NCBI GenBank assembly: GCA_026985075.1
Contig: JALSQX010000095.1
Span: 1-64,000, forward strand
Direction of reading: 5' to 3'
Origin: Blastocatellia bacterium
GTDB taxonomy: Bacteria > Acidobacteriota > Blastocatellia > HR10 > J050
Length of the DNA stretch: 64,000 nucleotides
Part shown: positions 22,720-28,273 of the stretch, in pieces
How positions within the stretch are numbered: position 1 is the stretch's first letter
Layout of the letters: every line of letters starts with the position of its first letter
Notes under the pieces: model-generated
What the model saw: only the letters and a program-made list of their open reading frames with translations
Database searches by the model: none
Told to the model about the DNA's origin: nothing
Made by a program: the position numbers and the translations under genes

Positions 22720-23724
22720 ATGGCGTGCTGCAAACGCAATGGCGAACCATCTCGGAATGGGCGATCTGCCGGGAGATCGGTCTTCCGGCTCAGAAATCAG
22801 CGCTGGCGATTCCTCGTCCATTCGGTTTCATTGCTGCTCATCGTCCCATCTCCAAAGGCGGGTTCTCCCTCGCTCGGTTCTACGACGATCCTGATCAATG
22901 AAGTTCTCGTCAATGCGGCCGGGTCCACGGAAGCGGCCAAGGAGTGGGTCGAATTGAAAAACGTGAGCGGCGCATCGCAAACGCTCAACGATTGGAGCAT
23001 CGGAGATAAAGATAGCTGCGATAACTTCCCGGAAGTGACCATTCCGGCCGGGGACTCCCTCATCCTGGCCGGCGATCGCGCACAATTCCTGCAAGATCAC
23101 CCTGGCTTTCAGGGTGCGGTCATCGGATTGAATGGCGCGGTTGGGAATGGACTGCGAAACGCTGGCGATCACGTCGCTTTGTTCAATGGCGCGGGCTGCA
23201 CGGGCACCGAGATCGATTGCGTGCAGTGGGGAGATAACACGGGCTGTGCAAACTTCACTGAGGTCGATGGTGGTATTCCCTCTCAAGGGACCGATGATAA
23301 GACTATCGCCAGGGTGAACGACACGGACACCGATCAAGATACCGATTGGGCCACCGGGCAAACGCCCACGCCTCAGGGGTTCTCACCGACTTCGGTGTTG
23401 CTCATTTCGTTCACCGCCCGGAGCATCAAAGAGGGCATTGTCATTCGCTGGGAAACGGTGAACGAGTACAACATCCTCGGATACAATGTTGCAAGGAGTA
23501 TTCACTCCAATGGCCCATTCGCCCAGATGAACGCTGATCTCATTCCCGCCCGGAGTGCGGGCGCCATCACCGGGGCCGATTATTCTTACTCTGATGATCG
23601 GGTTCGGCCGGGCACGAGATATTATTACCTGCTGGAGGCCATAGAGAGCGACGGCCGGCGGCAGCAATTCGGGCCCATTTCGATTCGGTTTGGCCGCGTT
23701 CGAGCCGCCAATCGTCAGCGATGA
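22720..23724 (+). CDS. Secreted lamin-tail domain (LTD) protein
   Basis: A 334-residue protein from ATG 22720 (after ggagggacacg). The N-terminus is basic, then hydrophobic (RWRFLVHSVSLLLIVPSPKA), consistent with export. Residues about 58-170 form a lamin-tail domain: ILINEVLVNAAGSTEAAKEW, VELKNVSGASQTLNDWSIGD and PAGDSLILAGDRAQF. A linker rich in D and T follows, then a fibronectin-III-like C-terminus (RSIKEGIVIRWETVNEYNIL, ending GTRYYYLLEAIESDGR), a combination common in surface proteins of environmental bacteria. No C-terminal sorting signal (PEP or LPXTG) is seen. It stands alone between repeat arrays, and its function is unknown. Confidence 0.75.
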   Translation: MACCKRNGEPSRNGRSAGRSVFRLRNQRWRFLVHSVSLLLIVPSPKAGSPSLGSTTILINEVLVNAAGSTEAAKEWVELKNVSGASQTLNDWSIGDKDSCDNFPEVTIPAGDSLILAGDRAQFLQDHPGFQGAVIGLNGAVGNGLRNAGDHVALFNGAGCTGTEIDCVQWGDNTGCANFTEVDGGIPSQGTDDKTIARVNDTDTDQDTDWATGQTPTPQGFSPTSVLLISFTARSIKEGIVIRWETVNEYNILGYNVARSIHSNGPFAQMNADLIPARSAGAITGADYSYSDDRVRPGTRYYYLLEAIESDGRRQQFGPISIRFGRVRAANRQR

Positions 23725-24051
23725 TCATCAGGGGGAGTGACGCTTCGTGCTCATAGCGGGGAAGTAACGATCCCCGGTGACGAGCACCGGGGCCTTCAGG
23801 GAGTGGGGGAAGTCGCGGTAACTAGCAGACAAGTCAGGGACCCCGGAGTCAAGCTCCGGGGCTTGGAGGGACGCCTCGCGGCTGGACGGCGGGGAGGTTC
23901 ACGTGCGAGCTAGTCCACGACGCCTCTTCCTCCACTTTAGGGACGCCCCGCCGCTGGTCGGCGGGGAGCAGTCAGTTGTAAGCTCATTTTGGCGGGGAGG
24001 CGTCGCCCGCGCATCTGAAAAGGCGCCAATTTCTTCAAGGAGCGCATCTTC
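23725..24051 (+). repeat. R2, R3 and R1 repeats upstream of the fused transposase
   Basis: R2 (about 23772-23792, stem CCCCGGTG/CACCGGGG), R3 (about 23840-23862) and two R1 (about 23873 and 23946, the latter CCCCGCCG/CGGCGGGG) lead up to the transposase. A partial R1 end (ggcggggaggcgtc) lies about 60 bp before its start codon. The last 45 bases are unique sequence with caaggagcg as ribosome binding site. Confidence 0.8.
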
Positions 24052-24912
24052 ATGAAACTCACTCCAATTGAAAATCCCACCTTCGCCTACCAGCTTCACC
24101 ATTATCTTTGTTGGCAAACGCATCGGCTCCGTCAGCTCTCATCGGCTGAACAACACGTGCTCCAGCGGGAATTGTCCCGGGTTTGTCAACAGTATGACCT
24201 GCACCTGTTAAAGGCTACAGTACAATCGACTCACCTTCGGGTACTCCTCAGCCTCAAGCCCGAGCAACGGATCTCTCGAACGGTGCAGACGCTAAAATCC
24301 CTCACTGGTCGAGCCGTGGGCTGGGAGCATCCGTGGGCTCGTGGATATTTGGCGCGCACTACTGGTCGAGTGAAGAAGTCCGCCATTGCTGAATATCTTC
24401 GGCATCAGGAGACGCACCATGAGTATCATCGACGAGTTCGCTCACCGGTGCGTCGATTTCGGAGGAAGCTCTCGGTCAATTTGAGTCCTCGTCACACCGA
24501 TGTGGAGTTGAACTATCATGTGGTGTTGTCCACAGAGTGGCGACAAGGGCTGTTCGATTCGTCACTGGCCGAATCGTTATGGGCGTACTGGCAACGGGTA
24601 GCCAATAAACGCGGGTTCGGAATTGACAGAGCGACCATCCTACCCGATCACATCCATCTCATAGTCACGTTGCATCCTGCGCAGGCTCCGGCTCAAGTTG
24701 TGAGTTGGCTCATGAATAATGGTCAGTACTTTCTTGGCAAGCACTATGGGCAGGCCATCATTCATCGCCGCATGAAGCGGGTATGGATGCCCTCTTGTTA
24801 TATAGGCGCGGTTGGTGAGTGGAGCACAGCGCAATTGGAAGCCTATCTGAGAAAATGCGGGGGGGAGGTAACGAACCCCGGAGGCGAGCCCCGGAGCCTG
24901 GAAGGTCAGTGA
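24052..24912 (+). mobile_element. Two-domain fused IS200/IS605-like HUH transposase (RAYT-like)
   Basis: A 286-residue protein containing two consecutive Y1-transposase-like domains. Domain 1 (about 10-130) has VQSTHLRVLLSLKPE in the HUH position (H61-L-R63, so the second histidine is replaced by arginine) and WARGYLARTTGRVKKS followed by AIAEYLRHQ with the candidate nucleophile Y115. Domain 2 (about 150-270) starts VELNYHVVLSTEWRQGL, has an intact HUH motif in ILPDHIHLIVTL (H200-I-H202) and a candidate Y265 in QLEAYLRKCG. IS200/IS605 TnpA and REP-associated tyrosine transposases are normally single-domain and act as dimers with trans active sites (family knowledge). Here the dimer appears fused and asymmetric. 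The last 17 residues (GGEVTNPGGEPRSLEG) are encoded by an R2 repeat. R1-R3 repeats flank the gene on both sides, supporting a role in their spread or maintenance. Confidence 0.8.
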
Positions 24913-25405
24913 CGCCGTAGCCGTATGTGTCGCGAATGAAGGTAACGAACCCTGGAGGCGAGCTCCGGAGCATTCAAAGAGTGAGGGATGCGGCGGTGAG
25001 TAGCGGGCCAGTCAGGGACCCCGGAGTCAAGCTCCGGGGCTTGGAGGGACGCCCCGCGGCCGGACCGCGGGGAGGTTCACGTGCGAGCTAGTTCAGGGGG
25101 CTTTGCTTCCAGGCGGGAGAAGCCCCGCAGCTGGTCGGCGGGGAGGGGTCAGGTGCGAGCGGGTGTAGCGAGGAAGTAACGATCCCCGGAGGCGAGCTCC
25201 GGGGCCTTCAGGGAGTGGGGGAAGTCGCGGTGACTAGCAGACAAGTCAGGGACCCCGGAGTCAAGCTCCGGGGCTTGGAGGGAGGCCCCGCGGCTGGTCG
25301 GCGGGGAGGTTCACGTGCGAGCTAGTTCAGGGAGCTTTGCTCCCAGGCGGGAGAAGCCCCGCGGCTGGTCGGCGGGGAGGCGTCAATTGTGAGCTAGTCT
25401 TTTCG
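24862..25405 (+). repeat. R2/R3/R1 repeats downstream of the fused transposase
   Basis: The first R2 (about 24862-24893) overlaps the 3' end of the transposase gene. It is followed by another R2 (about 24940-24972), R3 (25018-25040), R1 (25052), R1 (about 25122), R2 (25183), R3 (25253), R1 (25285) and R1 (25357). The two copies nearest the gene have imperfect stems (CCCCGGAG with CCCCGGAG-like ends, CCCTGGAG/CTCCGGAG) and may be older or transposon-end variants. Confidence 0.8.
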
Positions 25406-25564
25406 TTCAATCTTTGTCAAAATAACAAGCTATAAGGTTTTTTCAAACCGAATTCCGTCTCATGATCAATGGTGAGTACAACATCTTCCGGGCGAATCGA
25501 GGGACATTCATCCTCAATCCGCCCACGATGGGCTACTATCGCTCAGAAATACGAGGAAATCGCC
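25406..25564 (+). promoter_or_regulatory. AT-rich leader of the copper ATPase gene
   Basis: The stretch from 25400 to 25450 is clearly more AT-rich than its surroundings and contains TATAAG (25431-25436), a plausible -10 box. A matching -35 box at 17-19 bp is poor. A metal-responsive promoter with a long spacer is possible but not shown. Confidence 0.3.
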
Positions 25565-28273
25565 ATGGATGAGATGCACAAAGGTCATCATCAACACGAT
25601 GGGCGTTCTCATGACCAACAGTCTTCAACCATCGACCCAGTATGCGGGATGCAGGTCGATCCGGAGCGGGCCGCCAGCTCGTTCGAGTACCAGGGGGCGA
25701 CCTACTCTTTTTGCAGTCACCATTGCCTCATGGCATTCCAGGCCGATCCAGAATCATACTTGAGCGCCTCTCGCAGCGCCGTTCACCCTCAGCCGGTGCA
25801 GATTCGGCCGAGCCGTGTCCAGCAACCGGCTCCGCAACTGGCCGTCGATCCGGTGTGCGGGATGCGGGTCGATCCGGAGCGGGCCGCCGGCTCGTATGCC
25901 TATCGAGGAACGACCTACTATTTTTGTTGCGAGCATTGTCTGAGTCGCTTTCAATCCCATCCCGAGCAATACCTCTCTCAGGCTCCTCCCGCTCAATCCG
26001 TCGCGCCAATCCAAGAGACTCCAGCCGTCTCCAGCCGACCTGCGGGCGCATTCACCTGCCCCATGCATCCGGAGGTGCAGCAATCCCAGCCCGGTTCCTG
26101 CCCCTCCTGCGGCATGGCGCTGGAATCGACCGTGGTCGCCGCTCCGGTCACCCGAACGGAATACATCTGCCCCATGCATCCGGAGATCGTTCGCGATCAA
26201 CCGGGATCATGTCCCATCTGCGGCATGGCCCTGGAGCCCCGAACGGTCACATTGGTCGAAGAGGAGAATCCTGAACTCGTCGACATGTCGCGTCGATTCT
26301 GGATATCGCTCATCCTGACGGCGCCTATCCTGTTACTGGCCATGGCCGAGATGATTCCCGGTCAACCGCTCACCAGAGCGCTCTCCAGCACGGTCATCAC
26401 CTGGATGGAATTGGCCTTGGCCACGCCAGTAGTGCTATGGGGAGGCTGGCCGTTCTTTCAACGGTGTTGGACTTCGATCAAGAACCGGCGTCCCAATATG
26501 TTCACGCTCATCGCCATGGGCACGGGGACGGCGTACGTCTATAGCGTGGCGGCGGCGCTCTTTCCGAGCCGCTTTCCCGCCTCTTTTCGCCATCCCGATG
26601 GGAGCGTTCCCGTTTATTTCGAAGCTGCCGCCGTGATCACCACGCTGGTGTTGCTCGGTCAGGTGCTGGAACTGCGCGCGCGCAGTCGAACGAGCGATGC
26701 CATCCGGGCGCTGCTCGGACTGGCACCCAATACTGCTCGCCTCGTTCGAGAGGATGGGACGGAAGTGGACGTCCCGCTCCATCAGGTGAAACCGGGCGAT
26801 CGCCTTCGCGTCCGCCCCGGCGAGAAAGTGCCCGTCGATGGCGTCGTGCTGGAGGGAAGGAGCTCGGTCGATGAATCCATGATCACCGGCGAGTCCATCC
26901 CGGTGGAGAAAGAGCCGGGCAGCCGGGTCATCGGCGGGACGGTCAACGGAACCGGCAGTTTCATCATGAGAGCCGAGCGCGTGGGCAGCGACACGCTGTT
27001 GGCCCAGATCGTCCGCATGGTCAGCGAAGCCCAACGGAGCCGCGCGCCCATCCAGCGATTGGCCGACGTGGCCGCCGCCGCTTTCGTGCCCGCCGTCCTG
27101 CTCATCGCTGTCATCACATTCATCGTCTGGAGCATGGTGGGGCCCGAGCCGCGCATGGTCTACGCTCTGGTCAATGCCGTGGCCGTCCTCATCATCGCCT
27201 GTCCCTGCGCCTTGGGATTGGCCACGCCCATGTCGATCATGGTCGGCGTCGGGCGCGGCGCCACGGCGGGCATCTTGATCAAAAACGCCGAAGCGTTGGA
27301 GATCCTGGAGAAAGTGGACACGCTGGTGGTGGATAAGACGGGAACGCTCACCGAAGGGCGACCGCGGCTCACCTCTCTGGACGTTCTCCCGGAGTACGAG
27401 GAGTCGGAGGTGCTGCGTCTGGCGGCCAGTCTGGAGCGGGCCAGCGAGCATCCGCTGGCCGAGGCCATCGTCAGCGCAGCCGAGGAGCGGGGCTTGGAGC
27501 TCATCGGCGTCGATGAGTTTCGCTCCTACACAGGCCGGGGAGTCGTCGGCCGGGTGGCCGGGCGTCAAGTGACATTGGGGAATCCAGCGCTCTTCGAGGA
27601 ATTGAATATCGACATCGCGCCGTTGCGCGAGCGGGCGGAGAGGCGACAGCACGAGGGCGAGACGGTCATGTTCGTAGCGCTGGATGGGCGGCCGGCTGGC
27701 GCGCTCGGCGTCGCCGATCCCATCAAAGAATCGACGCGCGAAGCCATCAGATGGCTTCACCGGGAGGGCATTCGCATCGTCATGGTCACCGGAGATAATC
27801 GGACGACGGCCGAAGCGGTGGCCGAGAAGCTCGGGATTGACGAAGTCATCGCCGAAGTATTGCCCGAGCAGAAGAGCGAAGTGGTGAAACGACTACAGGC
27901 CGAAGGCCGCATCGTGGCTATGGCCGGCGATGGCATCAATGATGCGCCCGCTTTGGCGCAAGCGCACGTGGGCATCGCCATGGGGACGGGAACCGATGTG
28001 GCCATAGAGAGCGCCGGCGTGACGCTGGTCAAAGGCGATCTGCGGGCCATCGCCCGGGCGCGCCGATTGAGCCGGGCGACGATGCGGAATATTCGCCAGA
28101 ATCTGTTCTTCGCCTTCGTGTACAATTCGCTGGGCGTGCCCATTGCGGCGGGCGTGCTCTATCCGGCATTCGGGGTGTTGCTCAGTCCCATCATTGCCAG
28201 CGCGGCGATGACGTTCAGTTCGGTCTCGGTGATCAGCAATGCGCTGCGGTTACGAAAGCTGGCCTTGGAGTGA
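25565..28273 (+). CDS. copA: Copper-type P1B ATPase with two YHS and two heavy-metal-binding domains
   Basis: A 902-residue cation-exporting ATPase. The N-terminal region is unusual: a histidine-rich start ([17 protein letters not shown]), two YHS domains (about 23-66 [17 protein letters not shown], and about 96-138 [17 protein letters not shown]), then two copies of the CPMHPE...CGMALE metal-binding domain (about 162-186 and 200-225). The ATPase core has the intramembrane motif [11 protein letters not shown] (near 543), DKTGTLTEG (phosphorylated D near 589), SEHPLAEAI (the HP motif) and [12 protein letters not shown] (near 787), the pattern of Cu+/Ag+ pumps. It should export copper or silver from the cytoplasm. 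ATG 25565 is preferred; the frame extends to 25469 without conserved content. There is no adjacent regulator or chaperone; it is flanked by repeats. Confidence 0.92.

Follow-up and report, generated by a model that had tools for sequence, protein, structure and literature searches.

The reading frame at positions 24052-24912 (+ strand) of the window, by which we mean the whole 64,000-nucleotide stretch of Blastocatellia DNA analysed here, joins two Y1 transposase domains in a single chain. The two domains have lost complementary parts of the active site, the fused form is conserved as a family, and its genes are linked to arrays of hairpin units whose stem base pairs covary. We consider it quite probable that the protein is a single-chain pseudo-heterodimer of an IS200-type Y1 transposase, with one composite site, that acts on the flanking hairpin units.

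Results

The frame is open exactly between these positions and encodes a protein of 286 aa (P0001) from an ATG start, with a Shine-Dalgarno-like AAGGAG read in the sequence at 24037-24042 (+), 9 nt before the ATG. The preliminary description of this DNA had seen two Y1-transposase-like halves in the frame, and the Pfam model PF01797 indeed matches each half independently, above its curated cut-off (half 1, E=2.5e-12; half 2, the better-scoring half, E=3.4e-16). Half 1 comprises residues ~1-131 (24052-24444, +) and half 2 residues ~145-268 (24484-24855, +). The motifs H61-L-R63 and H200-I-H202, and the residues Y115 and Y265, are where they were originally placed. Half 1 carries a degenerate HUH motif, H61-L62-R63 (24232-24240, +), and a candidate nucleophile and metal ligand, Y115-xxx-Q119 (24394-24408, +), within the longer motif Y115-xxx-Q119-xx-H122H123; half 2 carries an intact H200-I-H202 (24649-24657, +) and Y265 (24844-24846, +), the latter in the context YLRKC with no Gln at +4. 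An HUH motif and a Tyr-xxx-Gln motif do not occur together within one ~150-aa domain, and only the two halves taken together provide the full set; with its two domains, the chain also departs from the usual TnpA of ~130-160 aa, which has a single domain and acts as a dimer. From C269 onwards, the last ~18 residues come from an R1 repeat unit that enters the frame (24868-24897). The longer motif around Y115, the lack of a Gln after Y265 and this repeat-encoded tail had gone unnoticed in the preliminary description.

The label first given to the protein, RAYT/IS200-like, needs a correction. By profile score the sequence is nearer to IS200 TnpA, with 120 bits across the whole protein for the NCBIfam model transpos_IS200 (NF033573); the RAYT model REP_Tyr_transpos (NF047646), whose cut-off is 80 bits, gives only 44. 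The genomic setting, by contrast, is REPtron-like. The fused gene is the sole Y1 gene above cut-off in the window's genome (5.2 Mb, 105 contigs), and no TnpB partner is seen adjoining it.

Both halves come out as TnpA folds when modelled, as structure prediction had been expected to show if the preliminary description was right. Half 1, modelled alone by AF2 with 41 single-domain TnpAs in the alignment, gave a confident Y1 fold (mean pLDDT 86.8), in which the degenerate HUH lies on strand 61-67 and Y115 on helix 109-129. Its best PDB matches (Foldseek) are the TnpAs of ISDra2 (E=4.6e-9), IS608 and Sulfolobus. The same matches were obtained for half 2, which has pLDDT values of about 80-97 across most of residues 150-268 and a short, truncated C-terminal helix (259-268). 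The closest solved structures are IS200 TnpAs, and 4er8 ranks last among the TnpAs in the structure matches. In the full-length model, for which the alignment consisted of single-domain TnpAs from viral contigs that MAFFT placed entirely on half 2, half 1 was left without an alignment; it appears there as a low-confidence helix that carries no meaning, and Y115 is not seen near H200/H202.

The distribution of catalytic residues was compared among 13 fused proteins, collected by overall similarity rather than by their catalytic residues, and shows that active-site parts are lost complementarily between the halves. At the HUH position of half 1 the proteins read HLR, HVQ, HIR, NLR, QFR, DLR or DVL, and HxH occurs in none of the 13 (in L044 a frameshift interrupts the motif); Y115, Q119, H122, H123 and Y125 are invariant in all 13. 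In half 2 it is H200 and H202 that are intact throughout (13/13). The half-2 tyrosine position, available in 12 proteins since L041 is truncated, is F in 8, W in 2 and Y only in the window's protein and L045; Gln at +4 is never found (0/12), and in the homologues with F or W the helix stops within a few residues of this position. The earlier statement that both halves keep a candidate nucleophile is thus correct for the window's protein (Y115 and Y265) and for L045, but not as a trait of the family. Each IS608 site is assembled in trans, with the HUH contributed by one monomer and Y127 and the metal ligand Q131 by helix alphaD of the other (PMC5934647). Distributed over its two halves, the fused family has kept precisely one trans set of this kind; the other is lost. 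This is our strongest evidence, and the complementary decay across the 13 homologues supports, at the level of sequence, the pseudo-dimer that had been proposed, with one site made from the HUH of half 2 and the Tyr of half 1.

The same residue pattern would also fit a homodimer of fused chains, in which H200/H202 of each chain would be paired with Y115 from its partner to give two composite sites and ordinary two-ended IS200 chemistry, as might be expected from the single-domain TnpAs of IS608 and ISDra2, which act as dimers (PMC6006769, PMC5934647). However, the two TnpA folds of each chain already suffice for one dimer and nothing points to a tetramer-like assembly, and we regard this arrangement as improbable.

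It is quite improbable that half 2 works alone, whether through its HUH and its own Y265 or as a half-2/half-2 dimer, with half 1 reduced to a decayed duplicate or a DNA-binding accessory. Because the window's half 2 has both HIH and Y265, besides the better profile score, and because the +4 Gln is also missing from some single-domain IS200 TnpAs (L079, L080, L087), a half-2-internal site is conceivable for the window's protein only. Neither of the two refuting outcomes named in the preliminary description was obtained: half 1 does take a Y1 fold, and in the homologues half 2 could not by itself be an ordinary TnpA, since F or W stands in place of its tyrosine in 10 of 12 and the C-terminal helix is shortened. 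Half 1, on the other hand, keeps its five invariant residues, and a decayed accessory would not retain the Tyr-Gln helix while the HUH was lost.

A stand-alone IS200-like TnpA with unusual catalytic residues was also encountered (L009, 1399-1893): its HIH is intact and Cys replaces the catalytic Tyr (QRCIERSEH). In its close relatives L079 and L080, the Tyr is present and the Gln absent.

The fused genes are embedded in REP-like arrays, in which a unit of the form TAG[GC]-N-TGAA-hairpin recurs every 64-74 bp and is directed away from the gene. In the window, the upstream cluster contains an R1 unit, that is, tag plus hairpin (23764-23793, +), an R2 hairpin (23839-23865, +) and two R3 hairpins (23873-23897 and 23945-23969, both -), the second immediately upstream of the gene and directed away from it. 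R3 is the same unit type in reverse orientation, reading on the other strand as TAGC, ~15 nt and a hairpin CCCC...GGGG. Downstream, one R1 unit overlaps the 3' end of the frame and provides the final ~18 codons (24868-24897, +); it is followed by a second R1 unit, directed away from the gene (24942-24971, +), an R2 hairpin (25017-25043, +), two R3 hairpins (25051-25075 and 25122-25146, -), a further R1 (25176-25205, +) and R2 (25251-25277, +), and two more R3 hairpins (25285-25309 and 25356-25380, -); composite R1-R2-R3-R3 repeats have a period of 234 bp. The order around the gene (two R3 pointing leftward, the gene, then R1, R1 and R2 pointing rightward) is outward on both sides. Units also point outward at every other fused locus that can be read on both sides, and the hairpins vary between genomes.

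These hairpins are abundant. The window holds 24 R1, 25 R2 and 45 R3 copies where none is expected, and the genome holds 229 of the R1/R2 type and 462 of the R3 type (~690), compared with 0 and 4 for the reversed patterns. Such units form about eleven clusters within the window's first 35 kb (826-34775), each with R1/R2 in one direction and R3 in the opposite one. The array next to the fused gene is bordered directly upstream by an ORF with a lamin tail domain (22720-23724) and directly downstream by a P-type ATPase (25469-28273) whose N terminus carries a pair of YHS domains and a pair of heavy-metal-binding domains.

Across six loci, TAG lies 19-20 nt 5' of the hairpin in 32 of 34 units and TGAA is present in 31 of the 34, which were not selected for starting at TAG. 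Among 16 units that were so selected, compensatory changes preserve the pairing of stem pairs 3-8. The hairpin foot carries neither GT[AG]G nor CGTC; TAG[GC] about 18-20 nt upstream and TGAA are found instead. The arrays gave no match in Rfam. The spacers are constant in length, but a CRISPR-like interpretation was rejected, as they recur and diverge and are not unique.

At most fused loci the frame ends within the first right-hand unit: in L006, L038, L039 and L044 the TAG[GC] box itself provides the stop codon, its TAG, and in L007, L008 and L023 translation stops at a TGA that lies within the unit or at its edge. This indicates that gene and repeats form one cassette. The short, Gln-less end of half 2 coincides with the gene-unit junction. 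In two genomes, G001 (a congener of the window's) and G025 (a congener of G017), the array repeats are present and the fused gene was not detected in their fragmented assemblies, suggesting that arrays can outlive or predate the gene. Comparison of G017 and G025, one pair of congeners, found the orthologous gap filled by unrelated sequence, with no clean empty site. Hairpin repeats also lie near some single-domain Y1 genes of subclass 1.2 in the same class of bacteria (L012, 1397-2159, with 68-bp spacing; L017, 2049-3270; L022, 1390-2229), and the arrays are thus not exclusive to the fused form.

Several repeat clusters of G017 are bounded by inverted copies of AGCAGGCTGCTGAAAAA (L215, 1455-1730; L216, 1481-1760; L007, 1279 and 3076), as if the arrays there were also carried by a separate MITE-like element. 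These terminal inverted repeats were rejected as a family feature, being confined to G017 and absent from the other fused loci and the window.

The preliminary description had suggested counting fused homologues in related genomes, and the count yielded 13 homologues or remnants, the window's included, from 8 genomes that all belong to one class. Other families of the class contain full-length fused proteins with 37-44% identity to the window's protein (G021, G017 and G040, the last with several copies), indicating that the ORF is real and not a chance reading; profile searches of 158-162 genomes of the class added G132, G133, G142 and G145 to reach the 8 genomes, and a further remnant was found in G019. 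Broken copies are represented by L024/L031, L040, L044 and L045. Within the reach of these searches, which covered the class and a sample of 396 genomes of the phylum, no fused form was detected outside the class. Single-domain Y1 proteins are common in the class, with some match in 76 of 158 genomes. Viral contigs yielded no fused relative, and phages and plasmids gave single-domain matches only, none covering 80% of the protein. A protein-query scan of genome contigs returned one weak half-1 match.

In a quick maximum-likelihood tree, the half-1 sequences form one clade and the half-2 sequences another (99 each), and the same inner groups recur in both (L041 with L045; L030 with L039 and L044; the remainder). 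These matching subgroups point to one old fusion followed by joint descent, and a single ancient fusion of two TnpA domains is the likely origin of the family as judged from its sequences. The two clades are not sisters, and half 1 forms its own long-branched clade rather than grouping with single-domain subclass 1.2 proteins; long branches make the deep placements of this tree unsafe.

The conservation within this family bears on the idea of a regulatory relic that binds hairpins and does not cut, such as a repeat-binding or chromosome-organising protein: the window's genome has a single copy, several copies elsewhere are broken, and domesticated TnpAs typically show low copy number and have lost one site, but the full catalytic set, which pure binding does not need, is invariant among proteins just 37-44% identical to the window's, making this reading very unlikely.

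Discussion

Our results suggest the following course of events. Two TnpA domains would have been joined once, long ago, and the fixed pairing would have left each half free to lose the catalytic part that it did not need. Half 2 would supply the metal-binding pair H200 and H202, and half 1 the nucleophile Y115 and the third metal ligand Q119, on its C-terminal helix. Each chain would then contain one composite, intramolecular site, and the reciprocal pair of H61-x-R63 with F, W or Y265 would have little or no activity. If it behaves as REPtron enzymes do, the protein may bind the hairpins of the 64-74 bp units as single strands, nick and rejoin DNA near the TAG[GC] or TGAA boxes 5' of the hairpin, and in this way spread the units through the genome. 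Two-ended IS200 excision uses two tyrosines. A single tyrosine would more naturally support nicking and rejoining one unit end at a time, as in E. coli TnpA_REP, which is a monomer (PMC6006769). If the TAG[GC] carried by every unit were the target, new units would arise beside old ones, and same-direction arrays of constant period could result.

In its most specific form, the proposal would make the protein a TnpA heterodimer that exists only as a single chain and has just one composite trans site. Its two diverged halves would read two types of hairpin, and it would build and spread ~70-bp same-direction REP arrays by inserting units beside the TAG[GC] box that each unit carries. We put this version forward tentatively, as a possibility that is somewhat doubtful when all its parts are taken together.

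It is instructive to compare the fused loci with known systems. With the IS200/IS605 TnpAs of IS608 and ISDra2 they share the Y1 fold in both halves, the HUH, the Tyr-xxx-Gln helix, a site drawn from two domains, the nearest solved structures and hairpins adjoining the gene. Unlike those enzymes, the fused protein holds both domains in one chain and probably has one composite site instead of two. Further differences are the long multi-unit hairpin arrays, which lie on both sides of the gene, and the lack of any TnpB partner seen beside it. Elements of the IS200/IS605 family are discrete insertions 3' of a fixed tetranucleotide, with one hairpin at the left end and one at the right. The resemblance to TnpA_REP/RAYT (REPtron) systems lies in the presence of one Y1 gene per genome amid many dispersed hairpin repeats with a short 5' tag, and in the number of working sites, probably one, which is also the case for the E. 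coli enzyme, a monomer. The sequence, however, is nearer to IS200, and the REPtron tag is GTAG or CGTC at the hairpin foot rather than the upstream TAG[GC] and TGAA described above. TnpA_REP reaches its single site as a monomer, while the fused protein would have reached it by fusion and complementary loss.

A third comparison is with subclass 1.2 of the TnpA_Y1 proteins, for which Y---Q--HH is the signature (PMC6006769). Half 1 has this motif in all 13 fused proteins, and single-domain members of the subclass are common in the same class of bacteria; unlike the fused protein, they are single-domain, with an intact HUH and a conserved C-terminal domain. The subclass has been described mainly from Cyanobacteria and Bacteroidetes, generally without terminal hairpins (PMC6006769). 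In the 2018 classification, three classes with twelve subclasses are all built on one core domain, and proteins of unexpected length, the products of gene fusion or of faulty annotation, were set aside (PMC6006769). The preliminary description had known of no double-Y1 TnpA, and our literature search, which covered open-access papers other than preprints, likewise found no description of one.

In IS200-type transposases every active site is assembled from two subunits; the fused protein appears to represent such a subunit-swapped site that was made permanent in one chain, after which the second site was erased. Covalent linkage of the halves allows a single mutation to be directed to either one, an option that a homodimer does not offer, and direct tests of whether the site assembles in trans or in cis, and of whether a second tyrosine is needed, are thereby opened up. 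With a tag that is neither GTAG nor CGTC, the linked arrays constitute an additional class of repeats. How a single-site enzyme, as in RAYTs, spreads repeats is a question on which the fused protein bears.
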